Below, one piece after another: positions 13,145 to 58,468 of a stretch of 64,000 nucleotides of DNA. A program made the position numbers and the translations under genes. Source of the DNA: Symbiodinium sp. CCMP2592 (Eukaryota > Sar > Dinophyceae > Suessiales > Symbiodiniaceae); NCBI GenBank assembly GCA_905221615.1, contig CAJNDT010004557.1, forward strand, positions 1,607,001 through 1,671,000. Direction: 5' to 3'. Within the stretch, counting starts at the first letter, position 1. Each line of letters begins with the position of its first letter. The notes below the pieces were generated by a model. It was not told where the DNA came from, did no database searches, and was given only the letters and a program-made list of their open reading frames with translations.

Positions 13145-13390
13145 GCTATCCCTAAAGCCTAAACCCTAAACCCTAAACAAAAAACCTATCCCTAAAGCAG
13201 GAGGCAGCAGCATGGGGACTTGAGCGCTGGGACGCTTTGGAGGGACTGGCGGCTCCTTGGACTGTCGCTTTCGAGCTTTAAGAGTTGGGGGTTTAGGGCT
13301 TAGGGGTTTAGGTTTCGGCTTTGGGTTTAGGGTTTAGCGGTTTAGGGTTGCGTAGGGTTTAGGGTTTAGGTTTAGGGTTTAGGACCTTAG
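13145..13390. repeat. Telomere-like tracts in both orientations
   Basis: CCCTAAA words at 13150-13190 and TTTAGGG words at 13290-13385, separated by about 90 bp that include an exon-like reading LERWDALEGLAAPW near 13220. Confidence 0.6.
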
Positions 13391-14103
13391 GAGTTGGGCT
13401 GCAGAGTTAAGAGTCAAGGGCTTAATTAATATAGGGATCTCAAGATATTACAGTATCATGTGTTCTGCTACGGGCTCGACACTAAAGCATGCACTTATAC
13501 CTTAAGACACAGCTCCGAGTGTCAGGTTTAGTGCAGACGGCTCTAGAGCTTTGGCAGGCTTCTATGTGGTTTCAGGATGTTTCAGGGCAAGATGTGATGG
13601 TGCACCTCGTATGTTTGGAGAACCGCAGTGACAGGTTTCAACAAAAAGGCAGAGATTGGCGCATCAATCAACAACCAAAGGCAAACCCCGACGCCTCCAT
13701 TCTAATTAGACTTTGCAAAAGTTGCATGTAGAGAAACCACAAGCCGCCGAGTTTTCGGATGGCACTGCAGACCCTAAGGCTATTTGCTTCGTCGGACCCT
13801 ACATCCACACGAACCCATTCCCAAAAGCCTTGTGTGGCAGCAGCGTACAGGCTTCACGGCTTCATATGAATATAGACCGCCGAGCAAGTAGTAATAGTAT
13901 TTCAGGCCCCTACATTATGAGCTTCATCACGCCCACCCAAAACCTTTCCTTTTCTTCAATAGCACAGTGCACCTGCGTCCAACTGAGTTCGTATTCTTGG
14001 CCAGCCGAACTCATGGTCCATTCGGATCTTTACCAACACCCCGTACAACCTACGGAAACTCTCGGCGCTCCACCGTCTAGCTAAGCAGCTAGCCCTGCCC
14101 AAA
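13391..14103. other. Intergenic DNA, no supported gene
   Basis: Two moderately long + strand frames (13489-13731 and 13713-14084) overlap here. Neither shows a motif or convincing composition. Confidence 0.35.
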
Positions 14104-18469: not shown

Positions 18470-18700
18470 TGGGGGGTGTAGGGTTTAGGGCTTGGGGTTC
18501 AGTGGTTTAGAGGCTTAGAGTTTTAGCTTTAAGCATTGGGGTTTAGGGGTTTAGTTAGGGTTTAGGGGGATTGAGCGGTTCATCAGTCCCGACCGGTGGG
18601 AGAAGTCGAGGCCTTGTCTCCCAGAACATGCTTGCGTCGAGGGACTCCAGGAAAACGACTCCTACACGGTTTAGGGTTTAGGGTTGGGTTTAGGGTTTAG
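18470..18700. repeat. Degenerate TTTAGGG tracts
   Basis: Clusters at 18475-18570 and 18668-18705. Confidence 0.6.
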
Positions 18701-20083
18701 GTTGTAGGACTCCTAGAGTCCAACACCAAGGATTCTAGCCAAGATTAGTCACGGTAGATTCCTTGCCGACGGGTTGCGGCGCTTTCCGCGTCCCTTGAAC
18801 CCCTATAGACCTTACAGCAACCCTAAATGGAAAACTTGGAGCCAAAGTGTAGCTCTTTCTTCTCGAATTCCAGAGCCCCCAAGTTGCCTGAAGCCTGGAG
18901 ACGCCGATGCATGCCCGAAACCAGTTTCTTCGGGCCTTAGGCTGCGGCATCCCCGCATTTAATCGACGCCCATCCGTTCTTCTTCAGTTCGACACGGAAC
19001 GCTTCAAAAAAAACAGAGCACGAAGTGTAGGCCGGAGGCCCTGAGACATCTTTCCAACATCTCCAACCCGCCCGAAAGCCCTACTTTCTAAACCCAAACA
19101 CTTAAACCGTGAAATACCAAGCCAACATCGCTAGCTAACTGTCTTTGGGTTCCCAAGTACAATCAAACGATACCAGAATGTACCCGAAACAACCCACACG
19201 GTCCGGGAGGTGTTGAATGCAGCTGTCGTGCCGCCTTTGCGGCTGGCATCGCTGCAGCGTGCATTGCTGAAGGCTCTTGGGGCTCTTTGAAACGGTCATC
19301 ATCGTTTCGTATATCCAAAAACCCTTTGCTGTATGCCAGAACTGTGGTCCGACACCAGTCGCGAAATGCATCTCTCTGGCTTCATCGTGCTGCAGCCCTG
19401 TGTTCCAGTCATCCACAAGTCGTGGTCCTTCACACTCTTGAGCTTTGGCTTCTGCGCCCTTCGGGGTTGACACAGCTGCATATGCAGGCGTACGGGTGTC
19501 CGATGAAGACAAAACAAAGAAGAAACCAGGGAAGGGGTTAAGAAAGGAAGGAAGGAAAGAGTGGTGTGGGCTTCATCTGAACGCTTGGCAGTGCAGGTTT
19601 AGGGTGTTTCCCCAAGCCCAGTTGCAAACAAGTCGATTTGAGATGACTTGTGCTGCGGCGATTTGCGCAGAAGCCGCTTTATAACTCCAAGGTGCCGAGA
19701 TTGGTATGAGCAAAGACGCCACCAGCAAGCCTAAATACTTACCGACACTAGTTGTGGGGTATTACAACTACAATGAACAATATCTCCAAAACGACACTTT
19801 CTAATTATTCAGGCCCCTATACTATAGATCCGGGAAGAAGTCGGACACGGCAGCAGACGAAGGGACCAAGCCATGGTTTTCGAGCTCGTCCAGGTGGTGA
19901 GAGTGATTTAATAAAGGTTTTGGAGGTTCAGGGTTTAGGCTGAGTATTGGAGACTGCAGCTACGGTTTGGGCTACGGGTCTAGGAAATCCCAAACAGAAA
20001 CTACTGTCGCATGATGTCGCAGGCCTTTCGAAACACATAGTCCCTCTTGGAGCCTCTTGTTTGCTCGAATCCGAAGCCAGGGG
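18701..20083. other. Upstream region of the phosphorylase gene, no supported gene
   Basis: Several overlapping frames of 60-125 codons on both strands at 18.7-19.7 kb have no motif. A family E-like fragment (CTAATTATTCAGGCCCCTAT) lies at 19800-19825. No TATA-type promoter is evident, which is usual for dinoflagellates. Confidence 0.35.
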
Positions 20084-20105
20084 GCTGTAGCCAGTTTGGC
20101 CCAAC
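20084..20105 (+). other. Probable relic of the dinoflagellate spliced leader
   Basis: GTAGCCAGTTTGGCCCAAC at 20087 aligns with GTAGCCATTTTGGCTCAAG of the conserved dinoflagellate spliced leader. About 18 of 22 positions match over the full leader. It ends 54 bases before the start codon of the phosphorylase gene, where a leader would sit in a trans-spliced mRNA. Genomic leader relics are known in dinoflagellates as traces of mRNA retroposition. The match is imperfect, as expected for an old relic. I recalled the leader sequence rather than searching for it. Confidence 0.55.
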
Positions 20106-20158
20106 GAATTTTGGTGCATTATCCTCGCCCGTTTTCCCTAACTCCGCTCCCTGCGATC

Positions 20159-23100
20159 ATGACCACCGCCGGTGTGTGGGATCCCAACCAACATGGCATT
20201 GACATGAAGCGCAACTGGGTTCTTTTTAACGGGTCTATTTTCAGTCACCATAATAGGGATCTATGGTAAATAATATGGTGTCCGTATTATGGTAGCCTAA
20301 AGTAAATCCCTTCACAAGAACCCAGGCAAGTCCTCCTTCTCGCTGCTGGACCAGATCAAGCGGCCCATGGACGGTGCAGACGAGAATCCCGACCAGAAGG
20401 AAAAGATGGAGACTAGGTAGGCATTTAGGACATGTGCCTCTTTCCTTTTTGAACTTAAGACGATCTTGTTAAAGATGGAGACTAGGTAGGCCTGTGGTAT
20501 ATTTTCCTTTTCCCTTATTAACTTGCTGGGCTGAAGAAGATCTTCTTTATGCGAATCTTTTGAGAGGCTTTGTAAAGTGGGCCAGCCGAGGAGAAGCTTT
20601 GGAAGCTGATGGAGACCTATGAGCCGAACGATCCAGAGTCCATCCAGAAGTCTTTCGCGAGGCATTTGGAGTACTCCTTGGCCTGCACGCGCTTCAACTT
20701 CACCATGCAGGATGCCTACACCCCAAACCCTAAACCCTATAAACCCTAAACCTTAAACCCTAAACCCTATAAACCCTAAACCTTATAAACCTTAAACCTA
20801 AACCTGAAACCCCAAACCCTCTACCCTATGTAAACTCTAAACCTTACACCCTATAAACCCTACATCTCAAAATCCTAAACCCTATAAACCCTGAACCTTA
20901 ATTAAACCCTAACTCCTATAAGTCCTCAACCTGAAACCCTAAGCCCGAAAAAATCCTAAACCTTCGCCCCATGCAGGATGCCTACCGAGCAGCTGGTTTG
21001 GTGCTCCGGGATCGACTCTTGGAGTCGTTGAACGATACCAATGCCTACTACAGGAAGATGGATGTGAAGCGGGGATACTTGGCTCTTGTTAAGGAGTTAA
21101 GTCTAAGTTACTATGATAGGGGATCTATAGGGGAAAAATGTGGTTTTCCTTCTTATGGTAACTCAAAATGAATTCCTTAACAAGAGCCCAGGATACTACC
21201 TGTCTGCCGAATACCTGATCGGAAGACACATGCAGAATGCGATTGCGAACCTCGATCTGGAGCAGCCCTTCAAGGAGGCCTTTCACGCACTCGGCATGCA
21301 GCTGGAGGACCTTTTCCACGAGGAGGTGGACCCGGCGCTGGGCAACGGTGGCTTGGGCCGTCTTGCCGCATGCTTCCTCGACTCCATGGCAACTTTGTCG
21401 CTGCCTTGCTGGGGCTACGGCATCCGATACAGCTATGGCATGTTCAAGCAGGACATCCAGAATGGCCGTCAGGTGGAGATGCCCGATTTCTGGATTGGCG
21501 ATGGCTGCCCCTTCGAGATTCCTCGGCCGGACATCACCTACCCAGTGCGGCTTTATGGCGAAGTTCAGGAGGGCCTTAATGCCAGCGGTGAGTGGTGCTT
21601 GAACTGGGTTGGTGGCGATATCGTCCAGGCCATGGCATACGACAATCCCATTCCTGGCTTCGACACCTACAACACCAACAATCTCCGATTGTGGCGCGCT
21701 TGCCCTTCGAAGGAGTTCGATCTTGACCAGTACAGCGCGGCGAACTTCACCGATGCCGTGGAGGCACGCCGAAAGGCAGAGGACCTGTCTGCTGTCCTCT
21801 ACCCGAACGACGCGAGCTACGAGGGCAGGGAGCTCCGCTTGAGGCAGCAGTACTTCTTCGTAAGTGCTTCGCTGCAGGATTTGCTGCGCGAGTTCATCAA
21901 GCGTCCCAACTACAAGTGGTCGGAACTGCCGGAGAAGGTGGCGGTGCAGATGAATGACACCCACCCGACCATTGCTGTGGCGGAGTTCATGCGCTTGCTG
22001 GTTGATGTGATGCATGTGCCTTGGGATGAGGCCTGGGATCTGACCACGAAGTGCCTGAACTACACCAACCACACCGTGATGCCCGAGGCGCTGGAGAAGT
22101 GGCCGGTCGAGATGATGACCCGCATGCTGCCCCGTCATGTCCAGATCATTGGCGAGCTGAACCTCCGATGGATTAATGGTCTGGTGAAGAAGTACGGCGA
22201 CGGGCCCATCATCGCAGCTTTGAGCATTTTTGAAGAGGGCGATGTCAAGAAGATCCGCATGGGCAACCTCGCCATCATGGGGTCCAACAAGGTGAACGGC
22301 GTCGCCGCGCTTCACACAGAGATCATTAAGAAGGAGACCTTCCCTGACTTCTACAAGTACTGCTGCGATACCGGCGTCCCGGACAAGATCGTGAACATGA
22401 CCAACGGTGTGACGCCCCGGCGTTGGGTGCACTGCGCCAACCCGGCCTTAAGTGCCATCTTCACCAAGTATCTTGGCTCCCACGAGTGGCTGACGGACAT
22501 GACGAAGCTGAAGGGCATGCTGAAGTTCAAGGAGGATCCGAAGCTGCACTCCGAGTGGATGGAGATGAAGAAGACCGCCAAGAAGAAGCTTGCAGGCTTC
22601 TTGAAGGAGGCGCTGGACCTGGACATCGACCAGGATGCACTTATCGACATCCAAATCAAGCGCATCCACGAGTACAAGCGGCAGTTTATGAACTGCCTCT
22701 ATGTCATCCACCGTTACCAGCAGCTGAAGAAGATGTCGCCCGCTGAGCGTGAGAAGGTGCAGAAGCGCGTGGTTCTGATCGGTGGCAAGGCAGCATCCGC
22801 CTACGTGAATGCAAAGCTCATCATCAAGCTGATCAACAACGTGGGCAAGGTCATCAACAACGATCCAGACACTGGCAAACTCCTGAAGCTTGCTTTTGTG
22901 CCGAACTACCGTGTGTCTGCAGCCGAAGTCCTGATCCCAGCTTCGGACATCTCGGAGCACATTTCTACTGCAGGCACGGAGGCAAGCGGAACCTCCAACA
23001 TGAAGTTTGTCATGAACGGTGGCCTGATTGTTGGTACCATGGATGGTGCCAACATTGAAATTCGTGAGGAGTGTGGTGAAGACACCATGTTCATCTTTGG

Positions 23101-23503
23101 CTGTTTGGAGCATGAGGTTGCCGGCATTGCAGCAAAGGCGAAGGAGGGTCACTACCCGATCGACAGCCGACTGCAAGCCGTTTTCCAGGCAATTCGCAAC
23201 GGTGAGTTCTCCAAGGGTGAGCCAGAGGCGCATGCCGAGTTTTGCTCGCTGGTTGACAAGCTCTGCAACACGCACGGTGCAGGCACCTGGGATGGTGACA
23301 GGTACCTGGTTGTCCATGACTTTCCCTCGTTCGTGGAGGCTCAGGCAAAAGTGGACGCAACCTACGCGGATAAAGCCAAGTGGTGCAAGCTCAGCATCCA
23401 GGCGGCCTCCTCCATGGCGAAGTTCTCCACTGATCGAACTATCTCGGAGTATGCCGACGTGATCTGGGGCGTCAAGCCTGCACCGCGTCCCATGGAGATG
23501 TGA
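20159..23503 (+). CDS. Alpha-glucan (glycogen/starch) phosphorylase, five exons
   Basis: GT35-family phosphorylase: releases glucose-1-phosphate from storage alpha-glucan, using pyridoxal phosphate. Exons inferred from frame and splice logic: 20159-20210, 20326-20416, 20578-20710, 20977-21073 and 21192-23503. Their sum is 2685 nt, exactly 894 codons plus stop, close to family length. The start ATG at 20159 is the first in frame after the spliced-leader relic. Exon 3 carries ESIQKSFARHLEYSLACTRF, exon 4 RAAGLVLRDRLLE, and exon 5 begins with YYLSAEYLIGRHMQNAIANL. Diagnostic blocks follow: EEVDPALGNGGLGRLAACF, YGIRYSYGMFKQ, MNDTHPTIAVAEF, NMTNGVTPRRW, QIKRIHEYKRQF, and EASGTSNMKFVMNGG with the PLP lysine in NMK. 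The protein ends VKPAPRPMEM. All introns lie in the first 1.1 kb; the last exon is 2312 nt. Introns 1, 3 and 4 use GC or GA donors. The exon 2/3 junction is the least certain. No regulatory phosphorylation site is evident. Probably a retrocopy that regained introns. Confidence 0.93.
20211..20325 (+). mobile_element. Phosphorylase intron 1, TIR introner (family H)
   Basis: 115 bp intron of GC-AG type. Inside it are inverted ends TGGGTTCTTTTTAACGGGT and CCCTTCACAAGAACCCA. They are bordered by GCAAC at the left and GCAAG at the right, a probable target duplication. Cutting so that one copy of the duplication stays in the exon restores the reading frame. The internal sequence CACCATAATAGGGATCTATG and the end TTATGGTAGCC are shared with intron 4. 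Confidence 0.75.
20417..20577 (+). other. Phosphorylase intron 2 (boundaries tentative)
   Basis: GT donor after GAGACTAG at 20416; acceptor proposed at GTAAAG/TGGGCC, which keeps frame and fits the total length. The block AAAGATGGAGACTAGGTAGG occurs at 20402 and again at 20471, so the exon end and donor are duplicated 69 bp apart. No clear TIRs. Confidence 0.5.
20711..20976 (+). repeat. Phosphorylase intron 3, made of a CCCTAAA array
   Basis: 266 bp intron. About 245 bp of it is degenerate CCCTAAA, CCCTATAAA and CCTTAAA repeats. A 17 bp direct repeat CCATGCAGGATGCCTAC lies at 20703-20719 and again at 20969-20985. Splicing at CAG/GATGCC in both copies removes the array and one repeat copy and restores the frame, giving a GA donor and an AG acceptor. 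The array orientation is C-rich on the coding strand. Confidence 0.8.
21074..21191 (+). mobile_element. Phosphorylase intron 4, TIR introner (family H)
   Basis: 118 bp intron of GA-AG type. TIRs are TGGCTCTTGTTAAGGA and TCCTTAACAAGAGCCCA. The 7 bp target duplication GGATACT is at 21073-21079 and 21191-21197. Splicing at CAG/GATACT restores RGYYLSAEYL. The core matches intron 1 (TACTATGATAGGGGATCTAT and TTATGGTAACTC). Confidence 0.85.
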
Positions 23504-24894
23504 GGTGCCTGGTACCGCATATTTTTGGGCTGCGGGGGTGGCGACCGGTCAAGGGGAGATCCTGTGGCTCGCCGTCTTAACCCGAAAAGAAGGCCCGATC
23601 TCATTTTAATCACCGAACTCTTTGCTCCAGGCACAGATCAATGATCAATGGCTAGTTAGTGTGCAGTAGCAATCAGTGTCCCAGTGAGACAACCCAGAAC
23701 TTGCTTGTTGTTTTGTATCGCCTTACCACCCGTGCCCGGTTGCAGCATCGGCAGCCAACCGAAACAGGTAAGCAGAAGCCTGCTCAGGTCGCTGTCGTAT
23801 TGATTTCCGTTCTCAGACACACCAACTCTTTAGAAACCTTTCTGCTCGCGACGGAGTCCGAGTAGGAGTCGTTCCGAGCTCAGCAGGCTAGCCTGTTCTC
23901 GCATCCCGCGTGGTGAAGAGCCATCAAAAACCTTTGGGGGGTTGTTTTCCTTTGCTTTGCTGTTCATTGCATATAGGTTAAATTGCGCTAGGTACCCCGT
24001 TGATGCTGGCTTGTAGGCTTCTAGCTTCTCCTGAAGTACGAACTCTCACAGTGACACCTCGTCTGGCTTGTCCGACTTGCGAGAGCGTCAACCGCTGCGG
24101 CTAGGTAGGAGGCAGCAAGCCCCAAAACCCTGAAGCCATAAACCCCAAACCACTTAAGCTGTGAAGCTCGTAAGCCTCGAAGCCAAAAACTAGGTGGAGC
24201 ATTGGGACACTTCTTTCATGTCCGGAATTTTCTTACGATCCTATGGAGCTTTTGGCATGTTTTGGGGGGGCCCTTTAAAATAGAACCCATTATAATCACA
24301 TAATTAAAAAAACCGACCTACGACTTGACCTACCTAAAACTGCCATGACCCACCGTTTTGCAGAATCCTTTTGCTTCACTGCCTTGGATTCTGTGAAACA
24401 GTATTTCGGGATCGGTTTAGGGTTTAGGGTTTCCTCATCATTGACGTCATTTTCTAAGGCCTTAAGGTAGGTGGTTGTAGGTCAAGAAAAGCCTACGCCA
24501 ACTGAACCCTAAACATTTGGGGGTCTTGTCAAAACAACGCACATCCTTTGTTCTTCCAGCCTACTGCCTCCGCTAGGGACCCCTGGAGACAAAGCAAAGC
24601 TTCAACCCTGCCGTGCCTTACATCAGCTATGAGTTCCAAGGATTGCCCCTGAACTACAAAACCTGACTCCTGTTGAAGAGGGCCCAAACCCGAAACCCTA
24701 AACCCGTAAACCTTTAAACCCTAATAACCAAGTCAAACCCTAAACCCGTGAACCTGTAAACCCTAATAGCCAAGTCAAACCCGAAACCCCTAACCCTTAA
24801 GCCCTAAACCCTAAACTCTAAAACAAAACCCTTAAGCCCTAAAAACCAAGTCAAACACGCAACCCGAAACCCTGGACCGACCCGTAGTTGGCAG
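23504..24894. other. Downstream region of the phosphorylase gene, no supported gene
   Basis: Unique-looking sequence to about 24.05 kb, perhaps 3' UTR at its start. One copy of the dispersed CGAG motif (GTCCGACTTGCGAGAGCGTC) is at 24070. Degenerate CCCTAAA words fill about 24680-24880. Confidence 0.5.
24311..24488. repeat. Long imperfect hairpin (K5) with telomere-like core
   Basis: CCGACCTACGACTTGACCTA then CCT at the left is mirrored by AGGTAGGTGGTTGTAGGTCA at the right. GGTTTAGGGTTTAGGG lies inside, near 24415-24432. Confidence 0.5.
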
Positions 24895-33287: not shown

Positions 33288-33494
33288 GGGCCTTAATAAT
33301 TATAGGGTTCCTTTCAAGGGAGCCTTAAAGGGTTCCTTTAAAGGGAGCCTTAAAGGGTTCTATGAGGGATCTATAATACGATTCTATCATACAAGGGCCA
33401 TAGTACTTACCTGTAGTATTTTGGGCGGTTCTTTATTACAACTAGTTGTTATAGTATAAAGAGCCCCAAAACCCTATTGTAATTATTAAGGCCA
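33288..33494. repeat. Family E TIR element (LINE insertion at its right end)
   Basis: GGGCCTTAATAATTATAGGG then TTCC at the left; AACCCTATTGTAATTATTAA then GGCC at the right. The core has two AAAGGGAGCCTTAAAGGGTT units. The LINE's target duplication begins inside its terminal AAGGCC. Confidence 0.65.
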
Positions 33495-33501
33495 CTACAG
33501 A
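33488..33501. repeat. Left target-site duplication of the LINE
   Basis: AAGGCCACTACAGA, identical to 46937-46950 at the other end of the element. Confidence 0.85.
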
Positions 33502-33726
33502 GGGTTCAAATTGCCCAGCAGCGGAGCTGTAGGGAACATTGTGACCCCAGCACCAACAGTGTGCGCTATCATACTGGCTTCACCGTCGTGGCACCGCAGG
33601 CTGCGAAAACGTCGTTCACAAGCTCGAGCCTGTCTTCGACAAGGCCTACACCTTTCAAGAGGACGACGTGCCCGGCTAGCCAGGCACCACGCCACCGGGC
33701 CTTTACAAAGACAGAAGCTTGCAGAC

Positions 33727-34932
33727 ATGGGGAAGGCAGGAAAGTATCCCAGGCATTCCGGATATTATCACGACCAAGATTGGTCCGAACAGCCGTGGTC
33801 TGCTTCACCCTCGCAACCCTTGTGGCCGGGTGCTCGTCGCACTTGGGAGAATCGACAACCACAGCGACCCGAAGGTTACCGATTTCCGGCCTACGATGCC
33901 GGCACACAGCCTCAGAAGCCAGAACACATTTCAGTTGTGGAGGAGAAGCACTATCCGACCTCCACCCGACCCACACTTGTCGCCGTAGTGCAGAAGGCCG
34001 TGAATGCGGCACGCAAAGTCGATGCCAAAGTGGAGCGTCTCAAGAAAGATCAGCGGGACAAACAAGGAAAGTGGAATCATTTCGAGTTGGAAATGAAGAA
34101 GGCTTTCACAAAAGAGCGTCGCCGTTTCGAGAAGGAGCAAGACAGGCTCGCCGACGAATTGGCCGCAGCCCTGGTGGAACAGGAGGACTCTCAGCGCTTA
34201 ATGCAGCATGCTGCGGCAAGCTTGGCGGACAGGACGTCGACTGCTGCTATGGAAGTCGACGAAGCCCTATGGGACGATCTCTTCAAGGACACTCCGGCTC
34301 CAGCACCCACCGAGATCGCCCGACTCGCTCAAGAGCTTCGAGAAGTGATCGATGGGCGTGCAGCAGCGGCTGGTGCCGCAGCCAGGCCGACGACCCCTAT
34401 GAGATCTACCACTACTACCCCGAGGACTCCCCCAGGAGGCGATCACAGGCGTGTCAAAGAACCGACCATTGCAGAGCCTACTCTGATAGGGCCTTCGGTT
34501 CCGCGGGACAACCAAGCCCCTGCAGATACTACCAGACAGGACGAGCCATCTCCGAAGACGACATCGACCGGCCGCCCCGAGGCAGCCGAGACAGGCGAGG
34601 CCAGAGCTCCCAGACACAAGGCTGCCCGCACCCAGGACGAAGGTCACCTGGGACCTCGACAGCCGGTCAAAGCCTTACCCAAGGGCGTGGTTCACACCCC
34701 CTCACCACATCGCTCGACATTCGCAGACAAGGTGGAAGCCAAGCGTGCCAGATTGCTAGAACAGACCCGCCGTACTCATGCAGATGGCGATGCACATCCG
34801 ACAGGTGGCGATGTGGGCCCTACAAATGTGGCCGGAGCCCGCCCGCCACATTTTGTCAGCGACGACGAGGACAATCACGACTCCTCCGGGAGCCAGGAGC
34901 CGGCCGATTCACATCTTGCTGGCATGGAGTAG
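33727..34932 (+). CDS. LINE ORF1, coiled-coil protein
   Basis: 401 codons if translated from the ATG at 33727 (MGKAGKYPRHSGYYHDQDW); the frame is open from an ATG at 33511, but the first 72 codons are Arg-rich and look like leader. Residues about 95-162 are strongly charged and helical (KVDAKVERLKKDQRDKQGKW, then KKAFTKERRRFEKEQDRLAD), a likely coiled coil. The C-terminal half is rich in Pro, Thr, Ala and charged residues and looks disordered. No CCHC zinc knuckle or RRM is visible. By analogy with LINE ORF1 proteins it may bind the element RNA; that is inference. It ends GSQEPADSHLAGME, 12 nt upstream of no obvious ORF2 start, so the ORF2 expression mechanism is unresolved. Confidence 0.75.
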   Translation: MGKAGKYPRHSGYYHDQDWSEQPWSASPSQPLWPGARRTWENRQPQRPEGYRFPAYDAGTQPQKPEHISVVEEKHYPTSTRPTLVAVVQKAVNAARKVDAKVERLKKDQRDKQGKWNHFELEMKKAFTKERRRFEKEQDRLADELAAALVEQEDSQRLMQHAAASLADRTSTAAMEVDEALWDDLFKDTPAPAPTEIARLAQELREVIDGRAAAAGAAARPTTPMRSTTTTPRTPPGGDHRRVKEPTIAEPTLIGPSVPRDNQAPADTTRQDEPSPKTTSTGRPEAAETGEARAPRHKAARTQDEGHLGPRQPVKALPKGVVHTPSPHRSTFADKVEAKRARLLEQTRRTHADGDAHPTGGDVGPTNVAGARPPHFVSDDEDNHDSSGSQEPADSHLAGME

Positions 34933-35246
34933 AGACTACCAAGCGGGGCGGCAATGTTTCTACTGGATCGCCTCGCACGACGCCCTTGTGGCCTCAGATT
35001 CCAACAACATGGGACTCTGACGTGGCTGTGCTGATCATTGATCACTGTTCCGAAGTTCCTCTGTGGTCAGGTGTGAGTAGCAGGTTCAAGCGGCCTTCAG
35101 CCACAGGGACAGCCTCGATTGGGTGTCGATGGTTCTCCCTTGGTTGTCAGTACTGCTGGGATCAATGCACCACACCCTTCCCAGAGGGTACTTGGAACGG
35201 TGAACATCGTCAGTACGAGCTTGTGATTGAGAGGCTGGTGAGGCCA

Positions 35247-38200
35247 ATGAGCCTAGTTTCCTCCTGTACAGGTTGCTGTCCGTTCGAGGAGCCCCTACCA
35301 GACACCCCTTCTTTCATAGGAGCTTTTGCCTGGAGGCCATCCTGGGATTGGTATGGTCCTGTAGGCATTTGCTCCTTTTCTTCCTCGCGAGTGCCTTCGC
35401 AGCAATGGGCTTTTGCTGTCGAGGGACCTCCTTCGCCTCATGGAGCTTGCTCTGGCTCTGCTCCATTCTTTTCCGCAACCTCCTTGTGTCGAGTGCCTAA
35501 CAGACGTATCGGTGGCTCAGGGACGTCAACCGACACTGAGGTTTTTGTGTACGATTCGCCAACCATACCAGAAGCCATACTTAGCCTCCTCACTGCCTTG
35601 GTGTGCCCTCTTGGGCGCACCTTCTGTGTTGTCATTGCCTGTATGCTGTGCCAGCTTCTTTCTGCAGGGGCCTCGCGTCGACGGTCCGCGGCTTTCACTG
35701 TGCACGCATATGACACATGTGCGAATCCGGGTCTGATCGTTTCTGCTCTTGCCAATGTGGCTTCATTGCATTCTCCCTGTCTGCGATGGACTTCCACCTC
35801 CAGGCACCGCCATTTCAGACTTGATAGACGTAAGCCTTCGGTCATCCCTGGCCATCTCAGGTTTTGGCTTCGGTTGCTTGCTGTATTCAGCATGCCTCAC
35901 CAACTTTGGGCCGCTCCACCCCACGTCCATAGGGTTTTGTTAGAAGCTCAACAGGTTGAGGACCGCCAACCAGATGACCTTGCCGGCTGTGCCAGTGCTT
36001 CTTCGCATAGCCGCCTCCTTGTTGAGACTGATGAGGACATCCTTCCGGTTGCGTCTCTGGACTTTCAGCGCGAGCACTATGATCTGCTTGACTGGATTGG
36101 GATATATGTTCATGTCCCTCATTACTGCTCATACAGTTTTGGTGTCAGACACCCGCCGTCTCAAGGCCTCGTTGGTCTTGTCTGCAAAATCCGACGGCAC
36201 ATAATGACGGAGCTTCCGTGGGCCACTGCACTGTTTCCAGTTTCTCCCCCACGTCATCTCGGCTACCCAGAGTTTGTCGCATGTTCGACATACCTGACAG
36301 ATCGAGGCATCGTGCCTGTGATAGTTGACTTGACGCATGTCGGGGGGAATTATTTCTCCGATGTCTGGAATCCAGCTGACACATCTGAGACCCTCTTACA
36401 ATACTATGCGGGTGAGTTCAACTGCGATCTTGATCAGGTCCGTGTCTACATTGGAGCCTCCCGTGCCCCATTATCTTCGCAGGATGAGTTGCAGGTTCAC
36501 CCTGGGGACACTGTTCTTGTTTTGCGAATGGATGTTCCAGCTCCAGTTTCCCCTCAAGCTGTCGAGCCCGCCTCTGCAGCAGGCTTTCGCGGTGATTTGG
36601 ACGATATGCCTGCCCTTCCCACTATGCCTTCCACGGCAGTTTGGTTTCGCCAACACATGCATGCCTTTTGTCATGCATATCATCCGGGTCCAGACATTTG
36701 GGGGGCCCTGAGTGAACGCTTTGGGCTGCATGATGCATCTGACCATCTACTCAGCACTCATGCCATCCGGTGCCTCAACTTGTATGGTTTGCACTGTGCC
36801 TCGGTCTGTGCTGTCTTTGAGTCCAATGTTCGGCCACACCTGGAGGAACAAGCTCCCCTGCCACCAGTCGCATGGCATTGCTTGTGCGACCTTAGACCCT
36901 TAGGATTGCTTCCTACGGTTCTTAGTCTACCTCTGCATGCCTGTGACTTGCCACAGCTTGTGCACCTTCTGGACCTCCCTTCTGCTGAAGGCTGGTCTTT
37001 TGAGATCACCGACACTGGCCAGCCAGCAGATGGTGCACTGCAGCTGCCGGTCCTTGTCGTCATCCCACGCCAAAGTGATCAACACTCCACTGTTATCACC
37101 AGCCATCAAGGCCCTGCCGCCGTCTTGCAACACGGCTCTGCATTCTTTGCTCCTGCTTGTGTCAGCACCCCAGCTACTCCTCAGATGTTGCGCCGGCCAG
37201 ACACTGGCGATTCTTCCGAGGCACAGTCTTCTGATGCCGACACCAGTGAAAACGAACGTCAACAAAACCTCATCGAGGCTCAGGTTTTAGTTCTCGGCTT
37301 AGATAAGACCCCTCAGGTTGTTGATGTGGAACTTGAAGCTCCAGCCACCGTGTCAGCACTTGTCCGAGCTGTTGAGGAAGAACTTCCAGGCGATTACTAT
37401 CTGCAATATCCTAACCTCGTTGAGGTTCTGCACCAGCCCTCCGACCAATGGGCCACACTTATCGCGCTGCCGTGCTGGACCCAAGCTGCCTCACTCGTGC
37501 TTTTTGACTTGCAAGGTATTGATGGACGGCTCTTCTTGATCGAATGCCCAGCCGCCGTCTCTGCGGCCCGTCTTTGCGAACTCGCAGGCCTGCCTGCAAA
37601 TGGTGGGATCTCTATCTACGCAAATGGTAGCCGGCAGCCCATGACACCACATTGTGTCTTGCAAGTCGTTTCGCATGACTGTGTTACATTCGTGCCAGTC
37701 ACGGCGCCCATTCCCCGAACTCACCAGCTCGCTGACATGCTTACGACCCCACATCGTTGGTATATGGACGTCACTGTTCCACGGGGGCCGGGTGGGATTC
37801 GAGGCCCGTACATTTGCATTGTACTCGAAGCTGGCAGTAGACTGTACCATATTAGCTCCCGCACCAACAGACATTATCTCGAAGATCTTGCTGCGGAGTA
37901 CGAGACACCCCTGCACTGGACTACCGTACAAATCGTCCAACCGCAGGTCTGCGATGCCTGCTGTCAAGGTTTCCGGTGCCGAGGGGTCGTGCTACTTAGT
38001 ACTGAATTGCCCAATGTGCCTGTACCACCTGGTGTGCCTAATCCTGGTACTTTTGTCGTGGCCTTGGATTGCCGGCCCATTTTCCAAGGGTGGCAACAGC
38101 ACCTTGCACAAAATTGGAGGTGTTCCCATGTTCACCTGGTGCAGCTCTACAGTACTTTTGCCCCTGACCAATTTCAGGTCCAAATAGATGGCGCGCCCCT

Positions 38201-41200
38201 CTCCGATGATGGTGCCGACCTTATCGTTGAGAAGGGGCAGGTTCTGTTGATTCAGTGGGTTCCAGTCACGCCAGCTTCACACCTTGGTCCAGATGATTTG
38301 CTACCGGAGGTTAGACTCACACCCACTTCTTCCGGCGACCATCACTCTCGACCAAGAGGTGATGAGGATTCTGGTTCGGACCCTGATGCCAGTCGCAGCA
38401 GATCTCCACGTGGGAGTCGAGCCACCCACAGTCTCTCTGGAGACCGCAACCCTCGCCGGCAGGCTGATGACGAAGCGGAGGCAGCACTTGATGTCAGCCA
38501 CAGCAGGTCACATAGGGGGAACGGCGCTACCCACTGTAGCGGCCCTTCTGTCAGCAACCTTGCTGGTGTTGTTGCACTTGCATTGCCAGGGCCAGCTGCT
38601 GCCTGTTCCGTAACTCACAGCTGTCAGTTATCCATCTCTGGGAGCGACTTTTGGTTGTTTGGAATCACCTGCCTAGTGACCCTTGGGACCCTCGCTATCG
38701 CTTTCCAACTGTTCAGGGCGGTCGGTTATTATGTTGACCCAGGGCGAGTCACCCCTCGAGCAGTCTGCAAGCGTCTTTCCAACTTTCCTCGGCCGCCATG
38801 CCTTACCTCCAAGCTACTTACAGAACCCACCAGTTCTGACTTCCGTGATCGTGAGGCACTTCGTTCACTTAGGCAAGCCTTTGCCAATTTGGATCAGCCT
38901 TGGCGATATTTCTCCAATGACGGTGAACCCTCACCTCACTTGGACGGTTCATCTGATGGACGTCCTTCAGATGCAGAATCCATTGCATGGGCGACGGCAT
39001 TGGTTCTGGCACCAGGATATTCGCCGGAAGTCTTAACTGTTGCATTACAGTTTCCTTTGACACTGCCTGAGGCCGAGGTGCTCTTTCAGCAGGATCGTGC
39101 ACCAGCACAGGCTGCTGCCTTCCCATATCTGTGTCCAGCCACGCCGCAAACCGTTGATGGTGCCGGGGTTTACACTGCAATGCCTCATTGGGATCCAGAC
39201 CTCAGAGTTGTAGCGATCGATGCCACTCGCTATGACGGCCGTCTGTTTTCCACAGTTGCGCCGGCCTATCTAGACCTGCAGACGGCCTTGCACCTCCTCA
39301 GTCTTACGCCTGCCGACGAGGTTGACATCTACCTATCTGACTCTCCTGCTCCACTGAGGCAGGGATTTCCAGCCCATGTCGTCGCAGGTCATACGCTGCT
39401 CGTAGTGCCTGCTGTGGTTCGTCCTCAGCTCCACCGACAGCTTGGCCTCATGCTACAACAACCCAGCGCTTGGGCACAGGACTTTTTGCTGCCTCCGGCC
39501 GAACAAGATACTTACTGTGTGGTTGCACAACATCAACTGGTGCTTCATCAATTCACCGGTAATGACCCTACACGGTTTCGACAGCAGCTTTCTGCTGCCT
39601 TGCAAATCAGGGCCCGTGACCTTGCCCTTTTCCCTGCTAGGCCTCGTGTGACTAATGCTGTTATAGATGGTTTTGTCTGCCGAGCGGTTGTTGCTGCCGC
39701 TGAAGTCAGCATCCATAATCGCAGCGAGCAGGCTTTCACCATCTTGCTTGATTGTCGACCGCTTTTGCAAGGCTGGCGGACTTATGATGTCCTCGACGGC
39801 CACCTGCCTCTTGAGCATCTCCGTACATCTGTGGAACATCTTGCCCCACCAGGCCGCCGACTCTTTTTCCCAGATTTCGTTGAGGAGCGTCCTTTTGTTC
39901 GCATTCCTCAAGGCACAGTTCTGACGATTGCTGTTGCTCTCGATAGGATACCCGACGTTGAACAGCCAACTGCACTCCCGACTGTGTTGCCAGCTTTTGT
40001 CCTTGCTCCGCGTCAGGGCACAGCTGTTCCATCAGAGGCGCTCACAGGACACGCGCCCAGCACAGGAACCTCCGCTGGACTTGCTGTCGGTACTGACCCG
40101 GCACTCGGCAGTGGTTCGTCCGCAAGTTCTTCTGAACCGATAGCTGGCGCACCAGCAGACGAAGGCGGTCCTTCCGTCAGTCCCCCCTCATATGTAACGG
40201 GCGCTTTCTATTTGCTTGCAGTTGATCGGGTTCCTGAGCTACATGTGGTCCGATTTTCTCCGCCACAAACTGTCCATCAGGCCCTGGCCAGGGTATCTGC
40301 CATGCGCTTGCCTCTTGCGCGTCGACGCTATCCAAGGCTGATTCCAGTCTGCCCACAGCCGAGGACCGGGTACGCCACTCTTCTTGTTGCACCTGTATGG
40401 AATGCTCCAAACGTTGTTGTGTGCGTTGACTCTCGCGTCGATGACAGGCTTTTTGCGATTGATCTGCCGCCTCACATCAGCCGACACACACTGCTTCGCA
40501 TAGCCGGATTCGCGGATGATGCCCCTCTCCAAATCTTTTTCCGCGACGTGCCATGGCCACTTGCTGATGGGGTCAATGTCACCGCCCAATTTGGTGATCT
40601 GTTTCGCATTTTGCCTCGGGCTAGTGATCCGCCGCCTCCCCTTTCCCTCGCCCGCATGCTTGAGGGAACCCAGGGCTGGTCTTCCGACTCTGTTTTCCCC
40701 AACCCGATCCTCGATATCGTATGGGTGCTTTCGGATCTCAGAGCCTTCTCATACCAAGTCCTTCCTGACCGGCACCACTACATTCGCCAAGATTTGTCTG
40801 TGGTGTTGCAGTGTCCACCGGCAACTCTGATGTTGCGACCTGCCACGCCCACTATCATCGATCACGCACACCGCGGCACCACCACACGTGCCGTCTTGGT
40901 TGCACACTGCCTTGATGCTGGGCTCCACCTTCAGACCCCTAGGCCCCCCTATGTGGTTCTAGATCTTCGGCCCCTCCTACTTGGGTTTGATTGGACTGAA
41001 GCGCCAGATGGCATGCTCGATGCCCGCACCCTTCGCCAACGGTTTGGCGTGAGATGCCCAGTTGGCTTTGTGCTTGGGTATACCGCCGCAGCAGGAGTTT
41101 CTCTTCCGCTTGTTGATTCATTTGCGGTACAGGATGGCGATGTCGTTTCCTTGGAATATCTCACTCACGCCGAAGCACGCGAGGCTGCGCACCATCCAAC

Positions 41201-44200
41201 TGCCAGTGTACAACAAGATGCTCAAACACCAGGCAATACCGATGCTTTTGCTGCCCTCGGTGACAGTCCCTCTTTACCGGGACCATCTGATGCTGGTACA
41301 GGCGGCACAAGCCTGCCGCAACAGGGGCGACAGCGCACCCTTGCACCGTATGGGCGTCCAGCAACAGCATCAAAGGCGTCTGCAGGTCTTGCATTCAGTA
41401 GAGTAGTCATGTGGCAGATCGCCCTTTGCGGACGATTTCTCACCTCTGTCCTCCTGTGCTATGGCCTGTCCTTGCTGGCACCTTTTGCCGTCTATGCATA
41501 CTGTGCCCTTCACCTGCCTCATGTTTTCAGGCGCTACGGCCGACGGTTTGTACCTCTTCTGGTGCTGTGCTTGAGCCTTTGGATTTTCAGTTGGCCTACC
41601 CTTGCTCAGGCTACCACCACTTGCGAGGATGTACATGTTACTTCCTATGCTGATGGACTCCAGGCCGTCTGTACCGTTGTGCCTGCAGCTATCAGAGCAG
41701 TCGCCACTCCCTGTAGACGACGAGACATCGATTCATCTACTCGAGAGTCTGAGGATTTTGGTCTTCAAACGTCTACTGCTGGACCCACGCTTCTCGAGGA
41801 TAGCTTGATCACCTTTGGCGATCGGCCATTCCTGGACGCAGTCGCACTGCTTGAGACTCTGCAAGAACATTTTGACGAGGGCACTGGCCAACCTGCAGCC
41901 TCGTCTTCGCCAGCACGCCCCATCACCAACCTTTCTCTCGTCACTGCCATCCCACTGACCAGTTATCAGGCCTCAGTTGAGTCTCTGCGTGCTCTTGTGC
42001 CTGCCCCGGCGTCTTCAGGTGAAGCAGATTGGTTAGATAACGATCTCTCTGCCTTGATGCACTCTGACCTACTGTCTGTTCGCCTCCAAAACCAACTTCA
42101 GACCGTACCTCGTTGGCATGATGCCGACCGTACCTCGATTGCTATACAGGAGGTCATGGTTTTCACGGATGGCTCTGCTTCCACGAGTCCAGATGACATT
42201 TTGCCATGTTCTTGGGCTTGCACAGTGTGGATTGCGACTGCACAGGGTCTGTTCTTCTATGGCGGCGCTGCCGGCCAGGCCGCACCTCCTGACACGCCAT
42301 ACTTTGTTGGCGAGACTGGTGACCACGCAGTTACAGCTGAACTTCTGGCCCTCTTTTGGAGCATTATTTGGGCCTCGGAATATGGTCCTGCTTTTGCCGC
42401 GCCAGTCGCTTTTTACTTTGATGCTGAGTCTGTCGGTCGAAGTGTTTTTGGCGAGTGGCGTCAACTTACATACCCAGCTTTACCTGGTCGGCCATCTCTG
42501 CTTTGCCTAACCATTGCAGCCAGGCAGTACCTTGCTCGCCTCTGCCAACTTCGGTATGATCATGTCAAGGGGCATTCCGGCGCCCTTGGCAATGAAGTTA
42601 CTGATGCTGTCGCCAAAACTGCCCGTCGACTGCCAGGCGACTTCTGGTGCCGATGTCTTCCCGAGTGGCCCGCGCATTGGGCCACACACCCTCTTGCGTT
42701 GTGGATTTGGCTCTTGCCAGGGGCTGCTGCCGACTTGCCCACGTTATTTGCCTTTGAGAGTGAGGCTAGAAGGTTGCGGGCACTACCACCGCTTGCACAT
42801 GGGCCCCCGTCCATGGGCACCCGCCTTGTTCAACCGACCGGCAAATATGTCCAGTACGACATTACGGCCATATCTTTCAATGTCCTTACTCTCCGCGACA
42901 AAACCACAGCCAATGGCACGATATCCGTGCCAGCCGGACTCCGGTTCCTGGGTCGACGGGCACTCCTGCAGCGTGAACTCACACCACTACGGCCCTTGCT
43001 GGTCGGGTACCAGGAGACTCGCCTTCCTGAGTCAGCCATGTCACCTGACCAGCACTACTTTATCCTTCAGGCTTCGGCCACAGCAGAAGGTTCTGGTGGA
43101 TGCGCCTTGTGGATCGGCCGGCATGTGCCCTATGCGACTGTTGACAGCCGACCGCAGTTCCTGCAGGAGCAGCATTTTGTCGTCACAGGCCACTCGGATC
43201 GGCATCTCAATGTCTCCATTGTCGCGCCGCACTTATCCCTTTTCGTCGTTGTTGCGCATTGTCCATCACTTGCCAATCACCCTCCAGCTGTTGTGGAGGC
43301 CTTCTGGCAGGCACGCCACAGCGAGATTGTCAAACGTCCTGCAGGCGCCGATTTCATCATTTTAGTCGATGCCAATGCTCAAGTCGGAGGGTACGAGACC
43401 GAGCATGTCGCTTCACATCAGGCTGCTCCAGAGAACGCAGCCGGGACCTTGTTCCATGACTTCCTCGTTGGAATCTCGGCATTCTTGCCGAGTACCTTTC
43501 CCGGTATTCATACGGGACCTGGCCACACTTGGTGTTCGGCCCGCGGCTATCGACACAGGCTCGATTACATAGTGTTACCGCTTGCTTGGCGCGAGTTTCA
43601 TCTCGAGTCACGCACTCTCCCTGGTTTCGAAGCCATGCAGCTTCGCGAAGACCACACCCCTGTTCTTCTGAAGGCCAGATTTTGCAGGCCAGTCAGCGAC
43701 GCGCCTTATGTTGACTGCCGCCGTCGTCCTGTACGCCCGCAGCCAGCCACTTCCGCGGCTGTCCAGCAGGATCGTTGTCGCTTGCTGTCTTCCTTGCCTG
43801 GGTGTCCCTGGCATGCTGATGTTGACCAGCATTTTGCGTGCTTTGTTCAACAATGGACCACGGCTGGCCAATGCATGCGTGACACTCAGCCTGCTACCCC
43901 TCACCAGTCGTTTATTTCTGACAATACGTTGGAGATTGTCCGTTGGTGCAAAGCCTTGCGAGGGTATCTTCACACCGAAGGCCAAGAGCGGCGCAGGCGA
44001 TGGTGTTTGCTCGTGTTTGCCGCTTTCCGTTTGGCCACCCTGAACCGCGACTTCACCACGGACGCCCTAGGACGAGCCGACCACTGGTTCCGTGAGTTGG
44101 ACTTCAGTGAAGCCACCGCCGTGTCTCTTTTGCATTCCTTTGTCAAAAGACTTCGCCGGGGCATCACCCATGACCGCGTTGCTTACCTTCAAGACCTTGT

Positions 44201-51429: not shown

Positions 51430-51540
51430 GGGGCTCCGGCGGTTGCTGAAGTGTAGAGTTTAGGGGTTTAGGGTTTATAGGGTTTAAGTGTTTAGGGGTT
51501 TAGGGTTTAGGGGTTTAGTGGGGTTTAGAAGTGTAGGGCA
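51430..51540. repeat. TTTAGGG-rich tract
   Basis: About ten loosely spaced TTTAGGG-type words. Confidence 0.8.
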
Positions 51541-51697: not shown

Positions 51698-51759
51698 GTA
51701 CACATATTATACACATAATTTTGCATATGCGGATATATAATTTTTGAAGTCAGAACCAG

Positions 51760-53421
51760 GCCGACGACCACCGACATCAGGGAGGCTCACGATCTCGGGA
51801 TAGCAGTGCCAGGAAATCTCCTTCGCCGCATTTGCCCGCACGGCAGTCCATTCGAGAAATCTCGACATCCCGAGGTGGGAGCATTGGCTTCAGGGTTTAG
51901 CATCTGGGGTTCGGGTGGAAGTGGCCAACTGTGGTGTAGGTGTTATGGTGGGGTGTATGAGACTTTATCAGGTATAGACTTATTGTTTGCGGATCATTTG
52001 CATGGCGCCTTTCGTAAAAGTCCGTGCCGAGGCGGCAACCTTGTGTCCAGCAGATGTCAGACGCCGTCACGGGAAGCATTCTTGGGAGGAGGCGGTGGTG
52101 AAAGCAGTAGAATGAGCTCCATGGGCACACCTCGACGAGCCAGGCGATTTCCAGACGAGCGCATAACACCAATGAGTTGCAACGACCACTTTCGTGAACG
52201 TTTGAACCGGGACGTAACCGGATTCGTGGCAAGCAGACCCCACACGCCTCGCGAGGCTTACCGGGGAGGAGGCGACTCTGATGTCGGGGCAGGCTTCAAG
52301 AGCACACCTCGCTCAGTGTCGCCATCCCGAGACGGCAGCACCAAGCACATTCATTTGCATGGCCATTTTCGTGACAGTTTGAATGAAGGCGGGACCTTCA
52401 TGTCAAGCAGGCCCCAGACGCCATCACGAGAGGCGTATCTTGGAGGAGCATCAGAGGTCCAGGGCACACCTCGCTTTCGGGGGCATCGTGGCGGCGCCTT
52501 CGCGGCAGCTCATGTACAAAGACCCCAGCTTCCCGGACAGCTGCAAAGCGACGAGCGGAGTGTAGAGCTGATGCGAGATTTGCTGTACACCTTCAGGCTG
52601 GGAGTTTCCGAACATTAGGGGTACCTTCTTTTGGGATCCTTATACGAAGGATCTTGCTATTTAGGGTACTATATTTGGAGACCTTATATTCGGAAGCTCC
52701 CAGGTCTTTCAGATCGGGGGATCATAGCTCCAGAAGCTCGCAGCCGTCTTCTTCACCTCGGCGCCCACCAAGCCGAGATGAGGGAACCAGGCACCCTGTC
52801 GTCTATGGCCCTTTTCGTTCAAGCTTGAACGAAGGCAGCACCTTTGCGTCAAGTAGATGCCAAACGCCGTCGCGGGACGCATACCTGGGTGGAGGCGATA
52901 ATCCTGGAACCGTAGACTTCAAGGATATACTTCGCCCTGACATCCATCGAGGTGGCACGTTTGTGGGATCGAGTGGGCAGAGGGCCGAATTGCAAGGATA
53001 CTTGTCCGCTTGCGATACTGAAGAAAAGCCGTTGTTCGACACACTTCGTGAAAGTATGAGGCAGGGACCTACCGTCTGGTCGAGCAGCCGATCGACGAAG
53101 CCGGACTACGCGTTTTTGCAGGCCAGCGAGGATGCAGTCCATGACTGGAAAGATGTGCTTCGCCCGGAGTTGCGCAGAGGTGGAACATTCATCTCTGCAA
53201 GACACGGCAGAGAGAAGTCCAGCGACTTTTTGTCGGAGTCTGGCGAAGGGCCGCTGCACTTTGAAGACACTCTGCGCGAAAACCTCCGGCAGGGAGGTAC
53301 ATTTGTGTCCTCTAGATCTGACGTGATTCCCTTCGACCATTCGCGACCTTTCTTCAGAAGTCCAATGTCAGCCAGAGACTCGCCAAGGCGAGAGTGGAAC
53401 AGAGACTTAGCTCTCCAATAA
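51760..53421 (+). CDS. Tandem-repeat protein gene, product unknown (5' end not seen)
   Basis: Exons inferred: about 51760-51886 (RSRDSSARKSPSPHLPARQS), 51972-52596 and 52704-53421, ending TAA. The second junction (GC-AG) restores the frame exactly; the first is a GC-AG option that also keeps frame but is less certain. The protein is built from about eight divergent units of the type FRDSLNEGGTFMSSRPQTPS followed by REAYLGG. Later units read DVLRPELRRGGTFISARHG and DTLRENLRQGGTFVSSRS. Units are spaced roughly 35-55 residues apart and rich in Ser, Arg, Gly and Pro. No signal peptide or membrane segment is visible in the part seen. I do not recognise the family. Such a chain is probably extended and may be a phosphorylated structural or scaffold protein; this is inference. 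Upstream exons lie beyond the low-complexity DNA at 51650-51740. Confidence 0.7.
52597..52703 (+). mobile_element. Introner in the repeat-protein gene (family G)
   Basis: 107 bp intron, GC donor (TTCAG/GCTGGG) and AG acceptor (CTCCCAG/GTC). TIRs are TGGGAGTTTCCGAA and TTCGGAAGCTCCCA. Removing it joins the two long frames of the gene in phase. The core (GGTACCTTCTTTTGGGATCC, then TATTTAGGGTACTAT) closely matches the intergenic element at 14831-14970. Confidence 0.88.
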
Positions 53422-57450: not shown

Positions 57451-58468
57451 TGTTTAGGGTTTATGGTTTTTGACCGGTGTGTAGCTGCGTGCGCTCTGAG
57501 GTCAAGGTGTCGGAGGTTATTCAAGGGGGTTTCGGGTTTAGGGTTTCCGAATGCAAAAAGGGTTTAAGGTGTAGGGGTACGAGAAAGCTCTGCTGTTGAG
57601 GGGTGTTTGCCGGCACGCAATCCAAGCCGATGCTGTCAGGGGGTTTGGTGGTCAGTGGTTAGGGCTGCACTAGGACATCACACGTTTTGCGCTGAGAGTG
57701 ATCCACGAAGCGTGCCATGTCGGTCAAGCCCTGAAGCATGCTAGCCCTAAAGAACCAACAGCTACTTTCCTAAACCCCATAGCCGCGACTCCTGGATCCT
57801 GAAACATCCTGAAGCTGTAAAGCCCCGCAACCCTGAACTCTACCTCAAAGAAACATGTGGCTGCGACTGTTGATTCGATGGTCGGTCGCCCTTTTTTGCT
57901 TCGGGTGTTTGGGTTTTAGAGGTTGTAAGGTTTTAGTGTTGTGCATGTGAAAATTTAGGTTTCAGGGTCGTAGGGGTTAGGCTTTATGGCTTCGGGTTTT
58001 GGTGCTAGGCTTTGGGGTTCACCTTTTCCTTTTTGTGGTCTTGAGTTCCTAATACCGAAACGCTAAACCCTAGACCCTAAACCCTACCCGATACCGAAAC
58101 GAGAGCCCTTCTCTTCCGATACTACCGGTCGAATCCTCGTTTTATCTTCAGGTGCTCCATGCTGTCAGCGGTGTTGCTGTGGAGCTGAAGAGGCCAGGGC
58201 TTATTGCTTTGGGGTTTAGGGCCTTCCGGTTTGGGGTCGGCAGATTATAGGGGTTTGCAGAGTCTAGGGTTTTGGGTTTGGTTTTAGGGGTTTAGAGAAA
58301 GGGTTTGGGGAGCGGTCATGAGTTCGCGATGGACTTTGCAGGCCTGTCGTGACGAAGGGATTGTTTTTTGTGCTACTGGTTCAAGTCTGGCAGTGCTGCT
58401 CGCTGATCCCCCCGGTTCTTAGTAGAAGTCTTGTCCAATGACAGCATACATTCCCCAACTTATATTAT
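57451..58468. other. Intergenic DNA with degenerate TTTAGGG words
   Basis: Words cluster at 57455-57560, 57900-58020 and 58210-58310. No gene recognised. Confidence 0.45.

Follow-up and report, generated by a model that had tools for sequence, protein, structure and literature searches.

The origin of new introns is a long-standing question. In break-repair intron gain, a new intron comes to lie between short direct duplications that carry its splice sites. Other related systems are described in passages of several reports: interstitial telomeric sequences at staggered double-strand breaks in horse and human, where three of the 66 horse loci are pure duplications and no human case lies in an exon, stops being expected in both orientations (PMC7215372); Introners in Symbiodinium microadriaticum, with a 4-bp target duplication, terminal inverted repeats, and a 5′ splice site supplied by the duplication (PMC9860276); and dinoflagellate retrogenes with a relict spliced leader, some carrying new introns and some inherited ones (PMC6050394, PMC12014239). 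Passages of a further report state that dinoflagellates gain introns quickly, that Symbiodiniaceae use GC-AG and GA-AG introns, and that TTTAGGG is the dinoflagellate telomere repeat (PMC11453091). We analyzed a stretch of 64,000 nucleotides from Symbiodinium sp. CCMP2592 (C4556:1607001-1671000, hereafter the window), in which a glycogen phosphorylase gene, itself a retrocopy, is interrupted after codon 85 by a degenerate CCCTAAA array lying between two copies of a 17-bp direct repeat (Table 1). A first-pass annotation, made from the sequence alone, had taken this interruption to be an intron created at a staggered break and had placed it outside every standard intron class. The second statement went too far, given that both break-repair intron gain and telomeric insertion at staggered breaks were already described. 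Among the matches listed from the open-licence literature, no title concerns telomere-repeat introns in dinoflagellates.

The repeat CCATGCAGGATGCCTAC (17 bp) is exact at 20703-20719 and 20969-20985, and neither side can be extended by a single base. With up to three mismatches it is found at three places in the window (mean in 100 shuffles = 0.23); with up to one mismatch it is found at 12 places in the 1.098-Gb genome, and exactly only at the two named here. The array between the copies (20725-20964) is C-rich throughout and is 78% identical to (CCCTAAA)n in a cyclic alignment (196 matches, 32 mismatches, 22 indels), compared with a mean of 58% in 20 shuffles; it is a telomeric-type repeat inside a chromosome by this alignment and by Tandem Repeats Finder (TRF). 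The insert measures 266 bp (20711-20976), which is 2 mod 3, and each of its three reading frames contains stops. When 20710 is joined to 20977 and the other three introns are also taken out, the frame stays intact for 887 residues and then reaches a stop. The product is a glycogen phosphorylase (46 PDB sequences matched at E up to 1e-50), and the best solved homologue, 4bqe_A, aligns over residues 55-884 and is ungapped at MQDAY, across the junction. The repeat, the array, and the restoration of the frame at codon 85 are confirmed, so that the position, the junction, and the telomere-like content given by the first-pass annotation all held. That 20711-20976 would be removed exactly by splicing is read from the frame and from the homologue alignment.

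The predicted borders (GA donor, AG acceptor, AG/G) fit the dinoflagellate spliceosomal type. In its sense orientation, CCCTAAA may also offer pyrimidines and CTAAA words resembling branch sites. The CAG/GA splice sites lie inside the 17-bp repeat at both ends, direct duplications with splice sites being likewise the mark of break-repair intron gain, from which this locus differs in its 17-bp repeat, its telomere-like filler, and a position already used in paralogues. Relative to the horse and human loci as described in passages of PMC7215372, the array shows strong decay and is placed in coding sequence, where by its frame it acts as an intron, and no empty site was found among five gene copies. 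The donor comes from the duplication, as in the Introners of the passages cited above (PMC9860276), but the codon-85 intron has no terminal inverted repeats, a far longer direct repeat, and telomere-like content. Plain tandem duplication of the exon was rejected as a source, the insert having no exon sequence except the 17 bp.

We compared five phosphorylase copies obtained from a protein search (21 matches): the window gene (C4556), its sister copy C1447, and C3746, C5369, and C5079. A total of 88 introns were read, four each in C4556 and C1447 and 27, 27, and 26 in C3746 (read to codon 505), C5369 (to 645), and C5079 (to 460); the last three, at loci L060, L061, and L062, have about one intron per 18-24 codons in the parts read. 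The splice-aware protein alignment, written for this analysis, permitted only GT, GC, or GA as donor and AG as acceptor, and the counts of donors (GC 42, GA 32, GT 14) and of AG/G borders (84 of 88) are not independent of this restriction. Intron bases 2 and 3 match those of the next exon at frequencies of 0.53 and 0.39 (0.31 and 0.25, respectively, in swapped pairs), and positions farther in differ little. Direct repeats of at least 5 bp at the intron ends were found in 21 introns, compared with 9.9 in swapped pairs, and repeats of at least 8 bp in two, compared with 0.48. These two are the codon-85 introns of C4556 (17 bp) and C1447 (12 bp); the remaining 86 have no direct repeat above 7 bp. 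The repeat is therefore as unusual in length as had been claimed, with only the 12 bp of the sister copy beside it, although length alone is not decisive, since passages of a survey of 213 introns report direct repeats of 4-30 bp, with mismatches allowed, near all borders (PMC11782384).

The sequence features of the window gene indicate that it is a retrocopy. A relict of the dinoflagellate spliced leader stands upstream of the start codon (20085-20105), its 17 matches in 21 bases being compared with a best of 15 among 500 shuffled leaders; at up to three mismatches no spliced leader is found in the window, and the relict has four. Genome-wide, the leader with up to one mismatch has 636 matches (318 + 318) and the reversed word has none, which marks the genome as that of a dinoflagellate. 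C1447 has a weaker relict, whose score is reached by 28 of 1000 shuffles; it terminates at the matching point, where C3746, the parent-like and intron-rich copy, has AG followed by CAAATTTTG. The whole gene has four introns, compared with 26-27 in the parts read of the intron-rich copies. Over those parts, C3746 and C5369 have eight intron positions in common (85, 145, 156, 291, 346, 366, 416, and 498), and the C4556/C1447 pair keeps only the one at 85, the other seven being gone. A leader relict (here 53 nt before the ATG) and an intron-poor copy beside intron-rich paralogues are also found in the retrogenes described in passages of PMC6050394 and PMC12014239, passages in which telomere-like introns are not mentioned.

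Synonymous divergence (dS) over codons 60-460 is 0.14 between C4556 and C1447, 0.64 between C4556 and C3746, and 0.59 between C1447 and C3746, and exceeds 1.4 in the other seven pairs. Nonsynonymous divergence (dN) between C4556 and C1447 is 0.007, so that both of these copies look constrained. The flanks of C1447, 4.8 kb on the upstream side and 4.0 kb on the downstream side, were compared with window positions 10001-32000, and the matches of at least 60 nt outside 20098-23923 were simple repeats only. The C4556 and C1447 copies (window 20098-23923; L059, L071, and L072) share introns at codons 45, 85, and 117 despite a likeness confined to the span between the transcript ends. This combination suggests retroposition of an RNA that was trans-spliced but cis-unspliced, and hence still held introns, or else a DNA copy with coincidentally matching ends.

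We give a probability of about 0.5 to a scenario in which the gene was first retroposed and then received an insertion that duplicated its target. The starting RNA, a phosphorylase message already trans-spliced and with most or all of its cis-introns removed, would have been reverse transcribed and integrated, yielding a gene without the old introns of the family; the leader relict and the missing introns are observed, and the codon-85 intron is presumed to have been lost with them. Degenerate telomere-like DNA would then have been inserted at CCATGCAGGATGCCTAC in the exon so restored, the target being duplicated as a staggered double-strand break was filled in around the inserted DNA. The duplicated word CAG/GA would give both splice sites under the relaxed GA-AG rule of dinoflagellates and so make the insert exactly removable, and the length of the intron would afterwards have diverged between C4556 and its sister copy. 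We infer the splicing, the break repair, and the order of these events.

The repeat runs across an exon-exon junction, and such a junction exists as unbroken DNA only where a copy has been spliced, which favors a target already spliced. For a duplication to cross a splice junction the target has to be intronless, and since the gene is a retrocopy, such a target plausibly existed and the junction was probably once continuous. An intronless copy also makes a clean target: an intron seen in it has either been gained there or been carried along through retroposition. Within the first 450 coding bases there are only six sites of AG/G followed by A, C, or T, two of which are old intron sites (85 and 145), and re-use of an old position would therefore be no large coincidence. 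Together with the leader relict, this count weakens the shared position as evidence against a second gain.

The strongest competitor, which we rate as a serious possibility a little short of an even chance, is that the retroposed RNA kept its codon-85 intron. A telomere-like array would later have invaded or expanded in it, replacing its 5′ part, and the 17-bp repeat would combine an inherited partial match, chance, and a CCTAC variant unit. Several observations weigh on this side and against insertion after retroposition. A phase-0 intron follows codon 85 in all five copies (266 bp in C4556, 88 bp in C1447, and 63, 106, and 270 bp in the others), and telomere-like words occur in that of C4556 and C1447 only; since all five copies have the intron and three have it without telomere repeats, its position is evidently old. 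No empty codon-85 site with a single target copy was found among the five copies recovered by the protein search. Break-repair intron gain is expected at a novel position, and codon 85 is common to all five, so that a second gain after retroposition would be an exception. The 3′ end of the C4556 intron resembles that of C3746 (CCTTCGCCC; alignment P = 0.0015, 2747 control pairs), although correction for several comparisons would bring this value, by our estimate, nearer to 0.01; the longest run shared by the two ends is 9, and none of 363 control pairs exceeds 7. The 5′ ends of the C3746 and C5079 introns resemble each other (P = 0.015). The C3746 intron starts with GACGCC, one base off GATGCC, and the C5079 intron ends with ATGCAAG; both already resemble the repeat, part of which could therefore be inherited. 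C1447 differs at four of the 17 intronic repeat positions. Codon 85 is, in addition, the most 5′ of the eight positions common to C3746 and C5369, the introns shared by C4556 and C1447 look as if an intron-holding RNA had been retroposed, and passages of PMC6050394 report that dinoflagellate retrogenes can retain introns.

Inheritance nevertheless needs about 12 unconstrained matches at the junction, and swapped pairs give 0.06 repeats of at least 12 bp per 88 introns. The tail of the C1447 intron is only weakly similar to that of C3746 (P = 0.073), the 5′ ends of the C4556 and C1447 introns show no similarity to that of C3746 (P = 0.98 and P = 0.38, respectively), and CCTAC is rare in the arrays (24 of 846 CCTAN words). 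By a rough reckoning, uncomputed, the coincidences required by a second gain and by inheritance are of similar size, and the standing given here to each follows from that. The claim that insertion created the intron is unproven: it is favored by the gene being a retrocopy, and countered by the intron in all five copies, three of them without telomere words, and by the 3′ end shared with C3746. A one-step origin by insertion is not settled. Should the codon-85 intron be inherited, the case would caution against reading recent gain from long flanking direct repeats before relatives have been compared.

It is improbable that the repeat dates from the first gain of this intron, in an ancestor of the diversified family, as a target duplication preserved since then by splice-site constraint. 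The intron ends do resemble ATGCAG/GAYGCC in several copies, but dS from C4556 is 2.08 to C5369 and 1.48 to C5079, the codon-85 repeats there are 6 and 4 bp, and the 86 other introns share the 7-bp limit noted above. An ordinary transposon-type Introner with terminal inverted repeats can be dismissed almost entirely for codon 85, since no inverted repeat of at least 9 nt occurs in 20695-20990 and the ends of an array C-rich throughout cannot pair, even though the gene's introns 1 and 4 carry inverted arms (45 and 47 nt, 76 and 77% complementary) with repeats of 4 and 7 bp and look Introner-like.

Table 1 Features of the phosphorylase locus in the window
Feature	Position	Strand	Description
Intron at codon 85	20711..20976	+	Predicted; phase 0, GA-AG, cut CAG/GATGCC ... 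CAG/GATGCC; from frame, homologue, and splice-aware alignment
Left copy of 17-bp direct repeat	20703..20719	+	8 nt exon, 9 nt intron
Right copy of 17-bp direct repeat	20969..20985	+	8 nt intron, 9 nt exon
Degenerate CCCTAAA array	20725..20964	+	TRF and cyclic alignment; 78% identical to perfect repeat
Relict dinoflagellate spliced leader	20085..20105	+	17/21 bases, 53 nt before ATG
Extent of similarity to C1447 copy	20098..23923	+	Leader junction to end of 3′ untranslated region
Glycogen phosphorylase gene, five exons	20159..23503	+	20159-20210, 20326-20408, 20591-20710, 20977-21073, 21192-23503; from frame and homologue alignment
Intron 1	20211..20325	+	GC-AG, 4-bp repeat GCAA, inverted arms; exact uninterrupted site in C1447 copy
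Intron 2	20409..20590	+	GA-AG, repeat GGAGA; uninterrupted site in C3746 copy
Intron 4	21074..21191	+	GA-AG, 7-bp repeat GGATACT, inverted arms; uninterrupted site in C3746 copy

Introns 1, 2, and 4 look like duplication-flanked insertions, and were probably gained as such; their uninterrupted counterparts in other copies favor the insertion reading of codon 85. The exact 30 bases joined across intron 1 are found in C1447, and the uninterrupted sites of introns 2 and 4 in C3746 read AAGATGGAGAAGCT and AAGCGTGGATACTAC, respectively; C1447 has a 117-bp intron at the position of intron 4. Intron 2 also includes a 69-bp extra stretch (window 20402-20491), made up of a 21-bp direct repeat (20402-20422 and 20471-20491) and the 48 bp between its copies. 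The repeat covers the exon end and the donor, and its word is single in C1447. The stretch may be a second long-repeat insertion in this gene; the 48-bp filler is weakly like the intron sequence downstream of it, which makes a decayed tandem duplication possible as an alternative.

Telomere-like arrays are abundant beyond codon 85. Exact CCCTAAA or TTTAGGG words number 163 in the window, compared with about 11 in simulation, and one 28-base array word is found, with up to one mismatch, at 3002 places genome-wide (reversed word: 0). Should telomere-like patches be able to turn into introns, there would be a direct link from intron gain to chromosome-break repair and to the thousands of arrays in this genome, and such gains could be counted by species comparison. 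We regard as tentative the wider proposal that telomere-like fragments are inserted at staggered breaks with duplications of ~8-17 bp and that, because the spliceosome takes GA, GC, or GT donors, those landing at any exon AG/G would be removed at once as introns, so that intronless retrogenes could be re-intronised at old sites with no transposon involved.

Non-telomeric flanking repeats of at least 8 bp bound four of 46 arrays in the window, where swapped flanks predict 0.50. The codon-85 array is not among these four, its own repeat being missed when array ends are set automatically; with ends set by hand and that array counted, six of 36 are flanked (0.71 expected). Outside the window the excess is slight, with four of 119 arrays flanked and 1.29 expected: one of 28 in six places totalling 60 kb (0.30 expected) and three of 91 in 27 further loci (0.99 expected), 21 of which were picked by an array word and six (L003-L008) because they nearly match the 17-bp repeat. 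Moreover, some flanking repeats of the outside arrays look telomeric themselves, and both observations count against the insertion reading of codon 85. An earlier count outside the window had an excess owed partly to a tandem satellite (L010) and to telomere-like repeats; L010 and the paralogue loci L059-L062 were dropped from the counts reported here, the filter for telomere-like repeats was tightened, and overlapping loci (L011, L016-L018, L033, L035, L037, and L038) were excluded from the flank counts. A direct-repeat scan with loose windows was rejected, its 2000 random controls having given repeats of up to 46 bp, and the swapped-flank control was used instead. Duplication-flanked insertion is thus at most a minority route for the arrays, and the suggestion that it explains the telomere-like words scattered across the genome is weak.

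In favor of insertion at codon 85, four other window arrays are tightly bounded by non-telomeric direct repeats of 8-11 bp: 58052-58101 (11 bp at 58063), 51448-51536 (9 bp at 51458), 18657-18715 (8 bp at 18668), and 13282-13398 (8 bp at 13289). A joined-flank search for empty sites of the arrays at 51458 and 18668 returned only the window's own locus as a match across both flanks; the other 25 matches in one search span about 30-40 bases of one flank.

Elsewhere in the window, a stop-free frame of 4470 codons runs from 33483 to 46895 on the forward strand. Some of its stretches are reminiscent of endonuclease and reverse transcriptase motifs, a resemblance that we presume rather than one confirmed by Pfam: at E up to 0.01, no Pfam family was found in this frame or in the frame at 52387-53418. 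The region 51719-53421 has frames with repeated TPSREAYLGGG-like motifs.
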